From NCBI GenBank assembly GCA_002163135.1, contig MAAN01000031.1, positions 62,001 to 126,000 on the forward strand: a stretch of DNA of 64,000 nt, given 5' to 3'. The position numbers and the translations under genes are program-made. The first letter of the stretch is position 1, and the number at the start of each line of letters is the position of its first letter. The notes under the pieces are model-generated. The model was not told where the DNA came from. It saw only the letters and a program-made list of their open reading frames with translations, and searched no databases. The DNA is from Alphaproteobacteria bacterium 46_93_T64. GTDB taxonomy: Bacteria > Pseudomonadota > Alphaproteobacteria > Sneathiellales > Sneathiellaceae. Positions 20,601 to 51,442 of the stretch are shown here, piece by piece.

Positions 20601-22106
20601 TTACTTTCCTTCGTGATTTTTACGAATGAATTGATCCAAAAGACGAACGCCATAACCTGTACCGCCTTTTGGCACTGTTGATGTGTCTTTTTTGGACCAT
20701 GCCATACCGGCGATATCAAGATGTGCCCACGGAGTATCATTTACAAATTTTTGTAAAAACTCGGCCGCTACGATAGAGCCTGCACCACGCCCGCCAGTTC
20801 CAATATTTTGCAAATCAGCAATTGGAGATTTGACTTGTTTTGCGTATTCCGGCTGCATAGGCAAACGCCACACACCCTCACCCACTGTTTTACCAGCAGA
20901 GAAAATCTGATCTGCCAAATCATCATTATTTGCAAATAGACCTGCATTTTCATGGCCGAGAGTAATGATGATCGCCCCTGTTAATGTGGCTAAGTCAATC
21001 ATCAATTCTGGATCAAAGCGGTCTTGTGTGTACCAAAGTGCATCAGCAAGAACCAAACGACCTTCCGCATCGGTATTCAAGATCTCAATGGTTTGACCTG
21101 ACATCGACGTGACGATATCGCCAGGACGTTGCGCGTTCCCATCAGGCATATTCTCAACCAATGCCACTACACCAATGACATTCACTTTAGCTTTCCGACC
21201 TGCAAGGGCTTTCATTAATCCTGTTACAGTACCGGCGCCGCCCATATCCCATTTCATTTCTTCCATGCCAGGGCCTGGTTTCAACGAAATACCGCCGGTA
21301 TCAAAGCAGACGCCTTTACCAACAAAAGCTATTGGCTTTTTAGATTTTTTGTTTGGGGCACCATTCCAGCGCATAATTGCCATCCGGCTTTCACGAACTG
21401 ATCCTTGGCCAACACCAAGAAGCGCTCCCATACCAAGACGAGCCATTTTATCTTCATCAAGGATTTCTACTTCCACGCCCAGACTTGTAAGCTCTCGGCA
21501 TTTGTCCGCAAAGCTCTCAGGATAAAGAATATTTGCAGGTTCACTCACCAGATCCCGCGTCAAGAAAACACCTTCTGCAATGGCCTCCAAATCAGTGAAT
21601 AACTTCCGTGCACCGCTGGACGCTTTACAGGCGACCGTCATTCTAAGGAGTGACGGTTCGCTCGCATCGTCCTCATCAGTTTTATATTTGGCAAATCTAT
21701 ACGAGCCCAACTTGGCGCCAAATGCTACATGCGCTGCCGCCTCATTATCCCGCAGATCATTGCTTTCAAGACCATCGAGAATCACCGTCACGTTTCTGGC
21801 ACCCGATGTATTCAATTTGCGAACAAGGCTACCGCCAAGACTTTCAAAATCAACAAGCTTCAAATCTTCTGGTTCACCGACACCAAATAGAACAACCCGA
21901 GATACGTCCATATCCTGAGGTGCCAGGATTTCCAGCAGATCCCCTTTTTTGCCTTTAAATCGGCTTGTCTCTAAAGCACGTGATAAAACACCGCCTGTGA
22001 TGTCATCCACATCCTGAGCCATGGGGGATAAAGTATTATCCGCAAAAACCGGAACGGCAAGCGAACCGCGCTTTGGTAAGGATATTTCTGAAAAAGCGAA
22101 TTTCAT
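20601..22106 (-). CDS. pepA: Leucyl aminopeptidase (M17)
   Basis: About 502 residues from ATG 22106, chosen by an AGGTG element about 9 nt upstream and by the family N-terminus; the frame is open to 22196 without support. FVGKGVCFDTGGISLKPG and NTDAEGRLVLADAL are the M17 metal-binding and catalytic signatures; KWDMGGAGTV lies between them. It is a two-metal, hexameric exopeptidase that removes N-terminal residues in the cytoplasm; some PepA proteins also bind DNA. It is co-transcribed with holC. Confidence 0.96.
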   Translation of the reverse strand: MKFAFSEISLPKRGSLAVPVFADNTLSPMAQDVDDITGGVLSRALETSRFKGKKGDLLEILAPQDMDVSRVVLFGVGEPEDLKLVDFESLGGSLVRKLNTSGARNVTVILDGLESNDLRDNEAAAHVAFGAKLGSYRFAKYKTDEDDASEPSLLRMTVACKASSGARKLFTDLEAIAEGVFLTRDLVSEPANILYPESFADKCRELTSLGVEVEILDEDKMARLGMGALLGVGQGSVRESRMAIMRWNGAPNKKSKKPIAFVGKGVCFDTGGISLKPGPGMEEMKWDMGGAGTVTGLMKALAGRKAKVNVIGVVALVENMPDGNAQRPGDIVTSMSGQTIEILNTDAEGRLVLADALWYTQDRFDPELMIDLATLTGAIIITLGHENAGLFANNDDLADQIFSAGKTVGEGVWRLPMQPEYAKQVKSPIADLQNIGTGGRGAGSIVAAEFLQKFVNDTPWAHLDIAGMAWSKKDTSTVPKGGTGYGVRLLDQFIRKNHEGK

Positions 22107-22215
22107 AATTGACACCTGATAGTTGAAAATTAAGGCCTCTAGGGGTTCTTTATTCTCTCCTGAATACCTTAGCGCGCGACGAGTATCAATAAACAACTGC
22201 GATCAAGCAGCAGTA

Positions 22216-22245
22216 TTGACAGCTATCGCACATTCATTTTATTCT
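22216..22245 (+). promoter_or_regulatory. Putative promoter of the XRE-GNAT operon
   Basis: TTGACA (22216-22221) is a perfect -35 hexamer. TATTCT (22240-22245) follows after 18 nt and overlaps the first operator repeat. The transcription start would fall inside the operator array. Confidence 0.5.
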
Positions 22246-22278
22246 CATTTATGGGAAATATTCTCAAAAATGGGAAAA
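22241..22278 (+). promoter_or_regulatory. Tandem 19-bp palindromic operator for the XRE regulator
   Basis: Two head-to-tail 19-bp units (22241-22259 and 22260-22278) read ATTCTCATTTATGGGAAAT and ATTCTCAAAAATGGGAAAA. Each has an inverted TTCTCA...TGGGAA core. The array ends one base before the regulator ATG at 22280, covering the -10 and the ribosome site. That placement suits autorepression. Confidence 0.65.
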
Positions 22279-22279
22279 A

Positions 22280-22834
22280 ATGAATAATTTGCTCACTATC
22301 AAGCTTGCTGAACGTCTTTTACTACTGCGGAAAAGCAAAGATCTGTCTTTGGAACAGTTGTCAGTCGAAAGCGGTATAAGCCGGTCAACACTTTCAAGAC
22401 TGGAGAAAGCCGAGGTTAGTCCGACGACAGAAATTCTCGGTAAGCTTTGTGCTGTTTATGGGCTCTCCTTAACGCGGATGCTATCAGCGGTCGAAGACAG
22501 TTTCGAAAAAGTCATCCGAGTTAAAAACCAATCTTTATGGGAAGATAAAACTACTGGCTTTAACCGTCGTTCGATTTCCCCGCCCTCTAACTCTCTTGCA
22601 GCTGAAGTTGTAGAATGTCAGTTAAGAGCTGATACTCATCTTTCGTATGACAGCCCATCCATAGCCGGGCAAGAGCACCACCTGATTATGTTAGATGGCT
22701 ACCTTGAGCTCACTATTGAGGCGGAAAAACACTGTTTGAATGCAGGTGACAGCCTTCGATACAAATTGTTCGGTGCTTCAAAATTTGAAACAACAAAGCG
22801 CTCTCCCGCAAAATACCTGCTTGTTTTAATCTGA
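22280..22834 (+). CDS. XRE-family regulator with C-terminal cupin domain
   Basis: 184 residues. An HTH of XRE type covers about 8-65: LLLLRKSKDLSLEQLSVES then GISRSTLSRLEKAEVSPTTE is a classic helix-turn-helix. A cupin-type sensor domain covers about 105-180 (GQEHHLIMLDGYLELTI, LNAGDSLRYKL). Such HTH-cupin proteins usually repress a neighbouring catabolic or acetyltransferase gene and bind a small ligand in the cupin. It is followed 8 nt later by a GNAT acetyltransferase, so the two form a small operon. Two tandem palindromes end right at its start codon. The pair separates pepA from lptF, which are often adjacent in relatives, so it may be an insertion. Confidence 0.9.
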   Translation: MNNLLTIKLAERLLLLRKSKDLSLEQLSVESGISRSTLSRLEKAEVSPTTEILGKLCAVYGLSLTRMLSAVEDSFEKVIRVKNQSLWEDKTTGFNRRSISPPSNSLAAEVVECQLRADTHLSYDSPSIAGQEHHLIMLDGYLELTIEAEKHCLNAGDSLRYKLFGASKFETTKRSPAKYLLVLI

Positions 22835-46671: not shown

Positions 46672-47364
46672 ATGGAAGAACTGCCAATCAATATCACAGA
46701 CGCAGTAATCCTGCTGATCCTCCTTATTTCTGCAATCTTCGGATTTGCAAGAGGATTTGTGAAAGAGGTACTCTCCATCACTGGGTGGGTTGGAGCTTCA
46801 TTTCTGGCACTCTATTTATTCCCTTTATTGAAACCTTATGTCCGCGTCTACGTCGATAACTTATTGATAGCCGACATCCTTACTGGCGCTGGAATTTTCA
46901 TCCTCAGCCTGGTAATATTATCCTTTATAACCCACGCTATCTCAGAGAAAGTAAAGGCTTCCGCTCTTGGGGCACTTGATCGTTCACTTGGGATATTTTT
47001 TGGTATCGCGAGGGCCGCTATCCTCATCGGAATTACATGGCTTGCATATGTACAGTTTATTCCGCCTAAGGACCGCCCTATCTGGATTACAGATGCAAAA
47101 ATGCTTCCCATTGCAAAAGCCAGTGGGGAATTCGTGGCGCGGCTAACACCGCCTGACATGCAAGCCAATTTACGCATCGCCGCAGAAAGCGCAGGAGAAT
47201 CTGCTGGATCTGCAAAAAAAGCATATGAAGCAATCCCTGAAGCGGTTCGAGATGATGTTGAAAAGACCGTCAAAGGGGCCATGGACAAGTTGGATAAAGG
47301 ATACGACACGAAATCCCGCCAGCAAATGGAAAATCTCACTAAAGGTACCCAGGTAAAACCATGA
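46672..47364 (+). CDS. CvpA family membrane protein
   Basis: 230 residues. Four N-terminal membrane helices (about 10-125) include AVILLILLISAIFGFARGFVKE, a CvpA signature, and a hydrophilic tail (about 150-230) follows. CvpA is a colicin V / envelope-homeostasis factor of unclear mechanism. It stands directly before purF with a 4-nt overlap, a conserved arrangement. Confidence 0.9.
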   Translation: MEELPINITDAVILLILLISAIFGFARGFVKEVLSITGWVGASFLALYLFPLLKPYVRVYVDNLLIADILTGAGIFILSLVILSFITHAISEKVKASALGALDRSLGIFFGIARAAILIGITWLAYVQFIPPKDRPIWITDAKMLPIAKASGEFVARLTPPDMQANLRIAAESAGESAGSAKKAYEAIPEAVRDDVEKTVKGAMDKLDKGYDTKSRQQMENLTKGTQVKP

Positions 47365-48833
47365 CCAAATTTGATATGTTTCCCCAGTACAGCAATCCGT
47401 TCGATGATGACAAACTGCATGAAGAATGTGGTGTATTTGGTATCTACGGCCATGAAGAAGCATCGGCCCTGACAGCGTTGGGATTGCATGCACTTCAACA
47501 CCGCGGACAAGAAGCTGCCGGCATCGTTAGTCTGGATGGCAAGCGCTTTCATAGCCATAAAGCCATGGGAAAAGTGGGAGATAACTTTTCCACTGAAGAA
47601 GTTATCAAAAGCTTGAAAGGTAACGCAGCACTTGGGCATAACCGATACGCAACAACGGGCGGAACCGTTATTCGTAATGTTCAGCCGATTTTCGCCGACC
47701 TTGCCAATGGTGGCCTTGCAGTAGCACACAACGGAAACCTGACAAACGCGACAACTCTCCGTAAACAGCTCGTCGCTGAGGGAAGCATTTTCCAGTCTAC
47801 AATGGATACAGAAGTCATTATCCACTTGATTGCAAATAGTAAGAAAATCAAAGTCGTAGATCGCATTGTTGATGCAATGCATAAAATTACGGGCGCCTAT
47901 TCCCTTGTCGCACTCACCAGCAAAAAGCTGGTCGGTATGCGGGACCCCCATGGCGTTCGGCCACTGGTTCTTGGAAAGCTTGATGGTGCGTATATTCTAA
48001 CATCTGAAACTTGCGCACTTGATATTATCGGTGCTGAATTTATTCGCGATGTAAAACCGGGTGAAGTCGTAATCGTTGATCAAAACGGTATTAATTCGAT
48101 CTCACCTTTCACGGCACCACCGCAACGCTTCTGTATTTTTGAGCATATCTATTTTGCGCGCCCTGACAGCGTTCTTGAAAATCGCTCTGTATACGAGGTT
48201 CGAAAATCTATCGGTCGCCAACTCGCTATTGAAAACCCAGTGGAGGTTGACGCCGTTATTCCTGTTCCAGACTCAGGAACACCTGCTGCAATCGGATATG
48301 CAGAGCAGTCGGGTATTCCGTTCGAACTTGGTATCATCCGAAATCACTATGTCGGCCGTACCTTTATTGAACCAACAGACCAGATCCGTCATTTGGGTGT
48401 TAAACTGAAACACAACGCTAACCGGTCTATGATCGTAGGCAAGCGGGTCGTCTTGGTTGATGACAGTATTGTGCGCGGGACAACATCTACCAAAATTGTT
48501 CAGATGGTTCGCGAAGCAGGCGCAACAGAAGTTCACATGCGCATTGCAAGTCCGCCAACCTCACACTCTTGTTTCTATGGCGTCGACACACCTACTCGCC
48601 AGAAACTCCTTGCTGCCCAGTATAATTTGGAAGAAATGTGCAAATTCATTGGCGCTGATAGCCTCAGCTTCATCTCACTAGATGGCCTCTATGTTGCCAT
48701 GGGTGAAAAGGGCCGCAATTCAGAGCAGCCACAGTATTGTGATGCCTGCTTCACCGGTGACTACCCAATTAGTCTTGTTGACCATGACAGTGGTGCAGAT
48801 GAAGAGCTGACATTGCTCGCAGAAAGCTCTTAA
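47361..48833 (+). CDS. purF: Amidophosphoribosyltransferase
   Basis: 490 residues. A short propeptide precedes the nucleophile Cys23 in LHEECGVFGIYGHE. The glutaminase domain continues to about 240 (QHRGQEAAGIV, GHNRYATTGG). The phosphoribosyltransferase domain carries VVLVDDSIVRGTTSTKIVQM, the PRPP loop. It makes 5-phosphoribosylamine from PRPP and glutamine, the first step of purine synthesis. It overlaps cvpA by 4 nt. Confidence 0.97.
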   Translation: MTKFDMFPQYSNPFDDDKLHEECGVFGIYGHEEASALTALGLHALQHRGQEAAGIVSLDGKRFHSHKAMGKVGDNFSTEEVIKSLKGNAALGHNRYATTGGTVIRNVQPIFADLANGGLAVAHNGNLTNATTLRKQLVAEGSIFQSTMDTEVIIHLIANSKKIKVVDRIVDAMHKITGAYSLVALTSKKLVGMRDPHGVRPLVLGKLDGAYILTSETCALDIIGAEFIRDVKPGEVVIVDQNGINSISPFTAPPQRFCIFEHIYFARPDSVLENRSVYEVRKSIGRQLAIENPVEVDAVIPVPDSGTPAAIGYAEQSGIPFELGIIRNHYVGRTFIEPTDQIRHLGVKLKHNANRSMIVGKRVVLVDDSIVRGTTSTKIVQMVREAGATEVHMRIASPPTSHSCFYGVDTPTRQKLLAAQYNLEEMCKFIGADSLSFISLDGLYVAMGEKGRNSEQPQYCDACFTGDYPISLVDHDSGADEELTLLAESS

Positions 48834-48846
48834 GGCAGTATTTGAT

Positions 48847-49545
48847 ATGAAAAGATTTGAAGGCAAGACCGCTCTTGTTACTGGAGCCTCTCGCGGTATT
48901 GGCGCGGCGATTGCGAAAGCACTCGCGGCTGAAGGCGCTCACGTTATTCTTGTTGCCCGCTCTGTCGGTGCACTGGAAGAGGTTGACGATGCAATCCAGA
49001 ATGCAGGTGGTAGCGCGACACTAGTGCCTCTTGACCTAACTGACACTAATACAATTGACGGCCTCGCGTCTCCTTTGTATGAACGATGGAAAAAGCTCGA
49101 CATTTTGGTGGCGGCTGCAGGAACTCTTGGCAAGCTCACCCCCCTTCATCAATATGATCCAAAGCTTTGGGAAGATGTTTTCAAGCTGAACGTTCATGCC
49201 AATTGGCGCTTAATTCGCGCACTCGACCCGCTCCTACGTGCGAGTGAGAACGGTCGTGCTCTGTTTGTCACAGATGGGCCCGCAAGTGAAACCAAGCAAT
49301 ATTGGGGCGGTTATGCGGCCTCAAAAGCAGCATTGAACGAAATGATCCAAACATATGCTGCGGAAACCGCTAAAAGTAATCTGAAGGTGAACCTGATCGA
49401 CCCAGGTCCAGTTGCAACAAAACTACGGCTTTCGGCATATCCAGGAGAAGATCAGAGCACTTTACCAACAGCTGACGACAAGGTTGAGCTCTTTCTAAAC
49501 GCACTTGATGTCTCCTACACAGGCAACGGAAACTTGATTAAATAG
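48847..49545 (+). CDS. SDR family oxidoreductase
   Basis: 232 residues. TGASRGIGAAIAKAL is the NAD(P)-binding motif; LDILVAAAGTLG replaces the usual NNAG; the Tyr-x-x-x-Lys is YAASK. The catalytic Ser of most SDRs seems to be in TDGPASE, so the active site is not fully typical. The substrate is unknown. It follows purF by 13 nt, as in many alphaproteobacteria. Confidence 0.9.
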   Translation: MKRFEGKTALVTGASRGIGAAIAKALAAEGAHVILVARSVGALEEVDDAIQNAGGSATLVPLDLTDTNTIDGLASPLYERWKKLDILVAAAGTLGKLTPLHQYDPKLWEDVFKLNVHANWRLIRALDPLLRASENGRALFVTDGPASETKQYWGGYAASKAALNEMIQTYAAETAKSNLKVNLIDPGPVATKLRLSAYPGEDQSTLPTADDKVELFLNALDVSYTGNGNLIK

Positions 49546-49590
49546 TCCATCGGCAAGGGCATAACATTTGCGCCCCCGCTTATTTCCGGT

Positions 49591-49639
49591 CATGATATAT
49601 CCAAAATAAAACATTCCAAAAATGGAAGGGTATATCATG
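49591..49639 (+). promoter_or_regulatory. Hairpin that sequesters the ribosome site and start codon of the next gene
   Basis: CATGATATATCC (49591-49602) can pair with GGGTATATCATG (49628-49639), 12 bp with one G-U. Inside, TTCCA (49614-49618) pairs with TGGAA (49623-49627) around an AAAA loop, with an 11-nt A-rich bulge at 49603-49613. The Shine-Dalgarno GGAAGGG (49624-49630) and the AUG (49637-49639) are wholly inside the stem. As DNA it could also be an operator. Confidence 0.7.
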
Positions 49640-50680
49640 ACGTCCACCGAAATCGCTTCAATCAAAGCTCAAGCAGAACTTCATCATGCCTACTTTTTAG
49701 GTCTGCAACTTATGGTATCCAGCCGTAAGGGCCCAGAAGTTATGGAAGAATGGATGTTCAGGCTTTTTCGTCGCCAACATCTCGATAAATTCCTCAGTAG
49801 CTTTCAGAAACTGGACCTCCAGGGCGAGCCTGACGCAGTGGCTTGCGCTAAATACCACGTTCTATCAAATGCGATCGGCGGTGTTGCCGTTGAATATATG
49901 GAAGAAAGTGACAAGAAAGCGTGGGTTCGCTTTCGTTATCCTCGCTGGATGTATGATGGGCCGGCACTCTGCGGTGTCCCTGTTGGCGTTGGACGCGGAT
50001 TTATGCGCGGTTGGTACGCCCACAATGGTGTGTCCCTCGAAAATCCGCGGCTTGGGTATGTGTGTGTATCTGAAGACCTTACCGGTGAATTCGGGTTTTG
50101 CGGATATTTCAAAGAATATGATCACGACCTAGAAGACGACGAGCGCTTGCAGTTTGCTAAAGGCGAACTTCCCCCGCCTTATAATCCTGATCACCAGCCA
50201 AGCCCCCCAATCACTGAATGGAGTGAAGATCGTCTGGAAAAAGCGAATCGAAACTACGCCATGGAATATGTCCGAAATGGCTTAGTTCAACTTTCAACAA
50301 TCATTGGCGACGCAGAAACACAGGAATTAGGTGCTCTTTCTGCGCGTCTTATTGGACTGCAATATTACCCAAAAATAGCTGCTATCGTTGGTGCGACGGA
50401 CGGTACAGTAGAAGATGCACGGGATTTCCTTATCTCAATGATGAATGGCATGGGTGATAAGACGACACTTCTGGCTAATTCTAACGAGAAACATGCTGGG
50501 TTTGAACACAGTGGTCTTCGTATTGTCAGAGGCCTTGAAGGGGCCTCTCGCGCTTTGATTATGAATTGCTGGCGTGAACTTTGGCTCGGCTGTGTAAGAT
50601 CTCATAGGGAAATGCTCACCCTTGAGATGCAACAGATAAACGAAGATAAATTGTTATGGCAGGTTCAAAGCCTACGGTAG
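49637..50680 (+). CDS. Unrecognised protein of 347 residues
   Basis: The start is ATG 49637, which has GGAAGGG 6 nt upstream; an upstream in-frame ATG at 49622 has none. The product is soluble, with no signal peptide or membrane helix. It has an N-terminal helical part (about 1-70), a compact aromatic-rich core with RFRYPRWMYDGPALCGVPVG and GRGFMRGWYAHNG (about 105-145), LGYVCVSEDLTGEFGFCGYF and a helical C-terminal half. The core loosely recalls proteins of the aminothiazoline-carboxylate hydrolase-like group; this is weak. The abutting minus-strand WYL regulator is convergent. Function unknown. Confidence 0.7.
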   Translation: MTSTEIASIKAQAELHHAYFLGLQLMVSSRKGPEVMEEWMFRLFRRQHLDKFLSSFQKLDLQGEPDAVACAKYHVLSNAIGGVAVEYMEESDKKAWVRFRYPRWMYDGPALCGVPVGVGRGFMRGWYAHNGVSLENPRLGYVCVSEDLTGEFGFCGYFKEYDHDLEDDERLQFAKGELPPPYNPDHQPSPPITEWSEDRLEKANRNYAMEYVRNGLVQLSTIIGDAETQELGALSARLIGLQYYPKIAAIVGATDGTVEDARDFLISMMNGMGDKTTLLANSNEKHAGFEHSGLRIVRGLEGASRALIMNCWRELWLGCVRSHREMLTLEMQQINEDKLLWQVQSLR

Positions 50681-51358
50681 CTACAAGTTTTTAATATAAT
50701 CCTGAAAAGATCTTCCGGGGCGAATATGGAAAAGCGTATCCGTCCCGGTAACAGATTTAAATTTATCAACTCGAAAGTTCCTAAATCCGTCTTTACTTTC
50801 GCACCATGCGGTCAGCAACCAAACTTCATCAAATGTGGTAAGCCCCAAAGGCTGTATAATGCGTTGCGTGGCAACACCTTCCAACGACACATAGTGTGCA
50901 TTTAATCTTTCCTTTCTGTTGATAGCATTTCTAAGCATCGTTAGTATATTGCCCTCAAACTGACCTTCCCCTGGAAAATTGGAATGGGCCAGTAACGGCG
51001 CATCCATAAATCGTTCCCGGACTTGTTCAGGAAGCACAGCGCTAATTTTTCCCATTGTTCTAGACGCCGCATCAGATAGATCTTTATCACTTCTGCTTGA
51101 GACCATGCGAAGACCAAGCACCAATGCATCCAGTTCATTTTCATCAAAATGCAGAGGTGGTAAGAAAAAGCCACCCTCAATTTGGTAGCCAATTCCCCCT
51201 TCACCTCGAACTGGCGCACCTAATCCCTGCAACATACTCATATCGCGATAAATCGTTCGCACGGAGACACTGTATTTCTGCGCAAGCGTTTCAGCGGATA
51301 TTGGTCGGCGAGCGACACGCAAGTCATCCAGAATTTCAAATAATCTTATTAATCTCAT
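50681..51358 (-). CDS. WYL-domain HTH regulator (YafY/DeoR type)
   Basis: About 225 residues from ATG 51358 (a frame extension to 51373 runs into the operator). An N-terminal winged HTH (about 1-60) has AETLAQKYSVSVRTIYRDMS. A WYL domain (about 130-210) carries the conserved HYVSLEG, RIIQPLGLTTFDEVWLLTAW and FRNFRVDKF. WYL proteins sense nucleotides or small molecules. It faces a divergent gene across an 84-bp spacer with a perfect palindrome, so it probably regulates itself and that gene. It abuts the preceding unknown gene without spacer. Confidence 0.9.
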   Translation of the reverse strand: MRLIRLFEILDDLRVARRPISAETLAQKYSVSVRTIYRDMSMLQGLGAPVRGEGGIGYQIEGGFFLPPLHFDENELDALVLGLRMVSSRSDKDLSDAASRTMGKISAVLPEQVRERFMDAPLLAHSNFPGEGQFEGNILTMLRNAINRKERLNAHYVSLEGVATQRIIQPLGLTTFDEVWLLTAWCESKDGFRNFRVDKFKSVTGTDTLFHIRPGRSFQDYIKNL

Positions 51359-51364
51359 GTCACA

Positions 51365-51385
51365 CCCTGACATAAATTGTCAGGG
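51365..51385. promoter_or_regulatory. Palindromic operator between the WYL regulator and its divergent target
   Basis: CCCTGACA (51365-51372), TAAAT, TGTCAGGG (51378-51385): a perfect 8-bp inverted repeat with 5-bp spacing. It lies 6 nt upstream of the regulator ATG and 57 nt upstream of the divergent gene. Confidence 0.75.
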
Positions 51386-51442
51386 ATGTCACATATTGTT
51401 CTTTCAACACCAAATCACGGTGGCAACGCTTTAGGAAAACAT

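Follow-up and report, generated by a model that had tools for sequence, protein, structure and literature searches.

A bacterial gene that closely follows a housekeeping operon may be transcribed by read-through, and the usual answer to this is a terminator. RBS-occluding riboswitches and thermometers sequester the ribosome binding site (RBS), and in IS10 and IS50 the read-through mRNA folds over the transposase RBS, while the own-promoter mRNA does not. For phage T4 gene e, longer, upstream-initiated transcripts with the Shine-Dalgarno (SD) and/or the AUG in a helix are described (PMC3014915), and the same leader-hairpin device is described for I-TevI (PMC2988022). The nearby promoter gives transcripts that do not include the 5′ side of the helix and that are translated, and T4 soc and 49 are listed among the genes with buried RBSs (PMC3014915, PMC2988022). 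In Vibrio, read-through serves activation, unlike the insulator proposed here (PMC10971746).

We analysed a 64,000-nt stretch of DNA from the marine Alphaproteobacteria bacterium 46_93_T64, of the genus Sneathiella (the window), in which the RBS and the start codon of a gene of unassigned function lie in a large inverted repeat (Table 1). An earlier note had claimed a 12-bp stem with one G-U pair plus a 5-bp inner stem, with GGAAGGG and the AUG at 49637 fully paired. The hairpin was confirmed, and repeat search added two further outer pairs, giving arms of 14 nt each that are 93% complementary, contain one G-U and are spaced by 25 nt. The inner stem TTCCA/TGGAA stacks onto the outer stem. Folding of 49560-49660, which the note had proposed as a check, gave a minimum free energy (MFE) structure of -24.9 kcal/mol (z -3.73) in which the SD (49624-49630) and the AUG (49637-49639) are both paired, and none of 200 dinucleotide shuffles was equally stable. 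This gene was ranked among the 244 genes predicted in the window and a further 236 kb of its genome (300 kb in all). It came first in the cost of opening the RBS (20.0 kcal/mol, with a median of 5.4 and a 95th percentile of 10.6) and first again in the length of the longest perfect arm of an inverted repeat across the RBS (11).

Table 1. Features of the hairpin locus and of the genes before it, in window coordinates
Feature	Position	Strand	Description and basis
Putative purF gene	47361-48833	+	First gene of the supposed upstream operon; before the SDR gene in 9 of 11 orthologues
SDR-family gene	48847-49545	+	PF00106; supposed source of read-through; directly upstream in 11 of 11 orthologues
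Candidate -35	49568-49573	+	TTGCGC; 17 nt before the -10; best score in the 135-nt L001 region, p(shuffle) = 0.37
Left (5′) arm of outer stem	49589-49602	+	GTCATGATATATCC; covers the candidate -10 and discriminator; repeat search, species-specific pairing
Candidate -10	49591-49596	+	CATGAT; inside the left arm; promoter comparison of orthologues
Predicted transcription start	49603	+	Seventh base after the -10, first A past the left arm
A-rich 5′ bulge	49603-49613	+	Predicted 5′ end of own-promoter mRNA; folding and orthologue comparison
Inner hairpin	49614-49627	+	TTCCA-AAAA-TGGAA; stem 49614-49618/49623-49627, loop AAAA; folding, orthologues
Shine-Dalgarno	49624-49630	+	GGAAGGG; sequence; GGAAG invariant in the alignment of 10 orthologues
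Right (3′) arm	49628-49641	+	GGGTATATCATGAC; SD end, spacer and start codon; repeat search
Gene of unassigned function	49637-50680	+	347 aa (352 aa from 49622); ORF; AF2 pLDDT 92.8

The in-frame ATG at 49622 was rejected as the start because in the orthologues L006, L008 and L010 the conserved AATGG carries its ATG in another frame than that of the gene; the start was therefore placed at 49637. The encoded protein had no Pfam match at E<=0.5 and no NCBIfam match above the cut-off (one, to an unrelated family, lay far under it at E 0.059). PDB sequences matched only at E 0.1 or worse, a Foldseek search of the PDB gave no match at E<=0.001, and a viral collection held no relative at the sensitivity of the scan. 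The AF2 model is confident (pLDDT 92.8). Structural comparison matched the C-terminal part of the model to Bet3/TRAPP subunits (Z up to 13.1; 151 residues at rmsd 3.0) and, at a lower level, the H-NOX domain and the phenol-sensor domains of MopR/PoxR (Z about 8), values that in helical proteins can reflect merely a common arrangement. We take this Bet3-like fold to be of the V4R type, and a small-molecule-binding role is possible on the basis of the model. By record title, the relatives of the protein are alpha- and gammaproteobacterial, many of them from marine assemblies.

One homologue per genome was found in 23 of 24 Sneathiella genomes, with at least 69% identity in ten (the window's included) and 47-49% in 13; genome G017, which is 56% complete, gave none. 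The ten and a copy from a metagenome assembly (L046) are the 11 orthologues of this study, the window's being L001, and the 13 belong to a sister clade. L043-L045 and L047-L049 were left out, since their contigs are equal in length to contigs of loci already included. In all 11 orthologues the SDR stop lies on the same strand 29-71 nt before a conserved ACATTCC, the shortest distance being that of L003. The gene before SDR is presumably purF, as judged from its sequence; the two orthologues outside its count in Table 1, L002 and L006, are on contigs that start inside the SDR gene. On the other side, a gene for a WYL-type regulator adjoins the hairpin gene. In the sister clade, the gene was not behind the purF-SDR pair in the 11 genomes examined, where der was directly next on the opposite strand in four and further on in three more. 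The sister-clade homologues sit elsewhere; in 10 of the 13 the neighbour is a PaaA/PaaC-family gene. These ten (L014, L016-L023, L025) all carry upstream an inverted repeat of the type ATGATACA...TGTATC, which is possibly a phenylacetate-type operator. No repeat of this type was identified in the stretch examined upstream of L012, L013 and L015, which are not PaaA/PaaC-adjacent, and a similar inverted repeat lies ahead of a different gene in the genome of the window (L101, near 16270).

The arms of the hairpin are complementary across the orthologues, with letters that mostly differ by species. The window has GTCATGATATATCC/GGGTATATCATGAC, L003 has AAGCGTCT/GGACGCTC with a non-standard last pair, L004 has GCGGAC/GTCCGC, L006 has TGCTTGC/GCAAGCA and L009 has CTGTGTTC/GGACACAG; arm letters are common only to the close pairs L001/L002 and L005/L007. 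Because the MAFFT alignments A1 and A4 misplace the left arms, no pairs were counted on them, and an alignment-free permutation test was employed. Among 100,000 permutations, none was as good as the pairing of left arms with the right arms of their own species, neither for the 11 orthologues nor for nine of them (without L002 and L007); for seven (without L001, L002, L005 and L007), about 2 in 10,000 were as good. The weakest case was L008, whose own arms pair at -8.3 kcal/mol and whose right arm pairs with the left arm of L001 at -18.1 kcal/mol. The search of relatives for compensatory changes, a further check of the earlier note, thus found pairing kept with different letters. Since the letters change and the pairing is kept, this comparison of sequences favours RNA pairing over a DNA operator of fixed sequence. 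Inside the arms, all 11 leaders have an inner core made up of AACATTCC, which reads AACGTTCC in L009, then a loop of 4-5 nt that varies, then AATGGAAG, as taken from the alignment for 10 orthologues and from the promoter comparison for L046, and AAC(A/G)TTCC is kept at the inner hairpin. We also observed that AACATTCC...AATGGAAG (49610-49628) is conserved in its letters beyond the need of pairing.

We identified -10-like hexamers (TATGAT, TACAAT, TAGAAT, TAAACT, TAGACT) at the place of the window's candidate -10 in seven other orthologues. The summed sigma70-like promoter score of the 11 leaders was above all 500 shuffle sets, and in 8 of 11 leaders the -10 of the best promoter ends 10-15 nt before ACATTCC, which would put the start where the left arm ends or just beyond. 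Examples are TTGCAG-17-TATGAT in L007, TTGCCG-18-TATGAT in L005, TTGATC-18-TACAAT in L003 and GTGACA-17-TAGACT in L046; in L002, L006 and L010 the best-scoring promoter was elsewhere and the -10 was placed by position. As read by eye in the 11 leaders, the left arm ends 0-8 nt past the -10. The seventh base after the -10, where the start is expected, is A in 8 of 11, and the predicted 5′ UTR of the own mRNA is 31-42 nt across the orthologues. The candidate promoter of the window is weak, with 7 of 12 consensus bases and the shuffle value of Table 1 for this sequence alone, and the case for a promoter therefore rests on the comparison of orthologues. A strict E. coli promoter scan of 49300-49760 called none on the plus strand and one on the minus strand (0.8 expected), and none was called in the leaders of L008 and L010. 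From the orthologue comparison we infer a promoter with its start site at 49603. Transcription starting inside the hairpin had been named in advance as a finding that would speak against the hairpin as a leader structure. The comparative analysis predicts just such a start, and the proposed function shifts with it, from the own mRNA to read-through RNA.

To open the SD and AUG, a mean of 10.8 kcal/mol was needed in read-through RNA versus 5.8 kcal/mol in own RNA, the former being higher in 10 of 11 orthologues (Wilcoxon p=0.003); for the window the values were 18.0 and 6.0 kcal/mol. With 3′ windows of 20-100 nt, the mean difference was 4.2-5.1 kcal/mol, and read-through RNA was higher in 9-10 of 11. 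The effect was large in L001, L005 and L007 (17-19 kcal/mol in read-through RNA), moderate in L002, L003, L004, L006 and L010 (8-10.5 kcal/mol), slight in L009 and L046 (near 6 kcal/mol) and reversed in L008 (4.7 kcal/mol in the long versus 8.1 kcal/mol in the own RNA). The AUG is mostly unpaired in the read-through RNA of L004 (0.85) and L008 (0.91). The own RNA of the window retains the inner stem, so that opening costs 6.0-9.7 kcal/mol, and with a 60-nt 3′ context just 0.05 of its SD and 0.03 of its AUG is unpaired. A terminator-like site was identified upstream in L008 (0.5 expected in shuffles), a single case that would fit a relaxed need for the hairpin; the same scan gave none in 49300-49760 of the window and none in L010, although a repeat there had looked like a terminator by eye. 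When the leaders of 243 genes were cut at 34 nt, the median drop in opening energy was 0.2, the largest drop was that of the window gene (13.9) and the next that of an XRE gene (13.7). None of 20,000 random draws of 11 genes reached the mean drop of the orthologues; this control cut every leader at a fixed length (34 or 20 nt) and did not use predicted starts. The sister-clade homologues, which are without the hairpin, had a mean of 6.0 versus 10.8 kcal/mol (p=0.005), for 12 of the 13 (L015 was too short) and with an SD window slightly different from that of the orthologues.

Taken together, these results suggest that the inverted repeat is probably a read-through insulator. The reading draws on what computation shows, namely the fold itself, compensatory changes specific to each species, the order of the genes, the difference in opening energy and a second locus of like design. 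RNA entering from the co-directional purF-SDR genes would carry both arms and would fold with the SD and AUG buried, so as to be poorly translated. In the own promoter, the -10 and discriminator would fall within the left arm or immediately next to it, with RNA starting at about the first A past the arm. As it would start past the left arm, the own mRNA would be without the 5′ strand, which would leave at the RBS no more than the short inner stem. Insulation alone leaves the inner stem and AACATTCC unexplained; they may tune the translation of the own mRNA.

The second locus was third in the 244-gene RBS ranking. It carries a short gene that we take to be phasin-like (L102:6884-7333, minus strand; orthologues L108-L129), 59 nt after a gene that is presumably proC; a Pfam match was not found for the short gene. 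Its leader, TATATTCTCTTC-TTAAACAAAG-GAGAGAATATATG, links a -10-like hexamer to the RBS/start region. Here too the arms pair species-specifically with changing letters, and none of 100,000 permutations was as good (n=21 of 22 loci, with L115 left out and L127, whose proC match ends 900 nt upstream, kept). The proC gene ends 58-85 nt before the phasin-like start in 20 of the 21, and a CTTTAA element is kept in 17. We took the best -10-like hexamer 16-20 nt after CTTTAA to choose the RNA start. The opening energy fell from 10.2 to 2.8 kcal/mol when the RNA started past the hexamer, with a fall in 16 of 16 (p=1.5e-5); the 16 exclude L112, L126, L127 and L128, which are without CTTTAA, and L122, where the predicted start is within the SD. 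For control genes cut at 20 nt, the median drop was 0.8. The hairpin locus and the proC-phasin locus fit one model, in which the -10/discriminator doubles as the anti-RBS strand.

Other structured leaders were observed in the window. The RBS structure of an XRE-type regulator gene (22220-22300, plus strand), divergent from the gene at 20601-22196, was second of 244 at 16.7 kcal/mol. Among eight orthologous leaders that were folded, those of L132, L133 and L134 have strong hairpins with other letters and the rest do not; this hairpin may be either an operator or a further instance of the device. A further hairpin, CCCTGACA-ATTTA-TGTCAGGG (51350-51395, minus strand), surrounds the start listed for the WYL regulator gene and was fifth of 244 at 14.8 kcal/mol.

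We considered other explanations of the inverted repeat. The one that survives best, although we regard it as unlikely, is a regulated RNA leader, in which the gene would be transcribed mainly from a start before the left arm and the RBS hairpin would be opened by a ligand, a protein, a small RNA or a helicase. Such a leader would account for the covarying arms; the inner AACATTCC...AATGGAAG is letter-kept as a recognition element would be, and a protein could bind the A-rich bulge. However, promoter-like signals lie in or beside the left arm in 8 of 11 orthologues, and L003 has just 29 nt between the SDR stop and ACATTCC. A search of Rfam 15 gave no match at the gathering score, so the ligand-opened leader envisaged in the earlier note was not found to belong to a known riboswitch or leader family; a search relaxed to E<=10 gave 10 weak matches (best E 0.18), each of which fell far short of its gathering score. 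Moreover, the core pattern occurs at 24 places in 24 genomes, 10 of them here and 14 elsewhere, against 12 places for its reversed version, used as a control. On these counts there is no sign of a regulon, and a motif regulon was rejected.

It is improbable that the palindrome is a DNA operator over the -10 and the start codon that binds a dimeric repressor. As DNA the arms are indeed 14 bp with one mismatch, and they overlap the candidate promoter, so the near-perfect palindrome seen in the earlier note holds good. The adjoining WYL-type regulator gene would also suit an operator, as would the same arm letters in L001/L002 and in L005/L007. However, the letters change between most Sneathiella species while the pairing stays, and every such change would oblige a conserved regulator to acquire a new specificity; the fixed-sequence repressor site that the earlier note gave as its alternative is thus disfavoured. 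We give very little credence to neutral upkeep, in which the arms would serve no function and would be kept complementary by template switching at replication. Repair of palindromes in this way could yield compensatory changes without selection; against this, the arms join a promoter region to an RBS at two unrelated loci, and the homologues that are not behind the SDR gene are without the hairpin. An RNA thermometer, which the paired RBS and AUG had suggested and in which warming would melt the hairpin and start translation, is scarcely credible and was rejected, as folding of the long RNA from 4 to 60 °C left the SD at most 0.03 and the AUG 0.00 unpaired.

The read-through insulator thus remains our preferred reading. 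Perhaps, and here we are more tentative, it is a general operon-insulation device of bacterial chromosomes, in which selection would also act on the -10 and discriminator of an internal promoter in a second role, that of anti-RBS strand, so that translation proceeds only from the own promoter, with at least two uses in Sneathiella and with coevolving arms. If true, an RBS-burying arm within the promoter would be a compact alternative to the terminator, one that is translational and invisible to annotation. With arms that coevolve at two loci on the chromosome of a single genus, the device would count as an ordinary bacterial option, and it could be searched for in any genome through species-specific promoter-RBS pairing. 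A word search of the open-licence literature returned no report of such a device on a bacterial chromosome.

In its sequestration of the RBS the locus is like riboswitches and thermometers; unlike them, it has no Rfam match, does not melt up to 60 °C and has a predicted own mRNA without the 5′ arm. Unlike the mobile elements IS10 and IS50, it concerns a single-copy gene (23 of 24 Sneathiella genomes) with no match to a transposase family. The likeness to T4 gene e and I-TevI is the sequestration of the RBS and start in a predicted long transcript, which is weak or absent in L008, L009 and L046. In T4, the promoter is a phage late promoter and the purpose is timing, as shown by experiment. The present locus, described by computation, differs in its predicted sigma70-like promoter, its place on a bacterial chromosome behind purF-SDR and its genus-wide compensatory changes. 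A device that silences read-through RNA is thus already described for phage T4; what would be new here is that it is chromosomal and that its arms coevolve across a genus.
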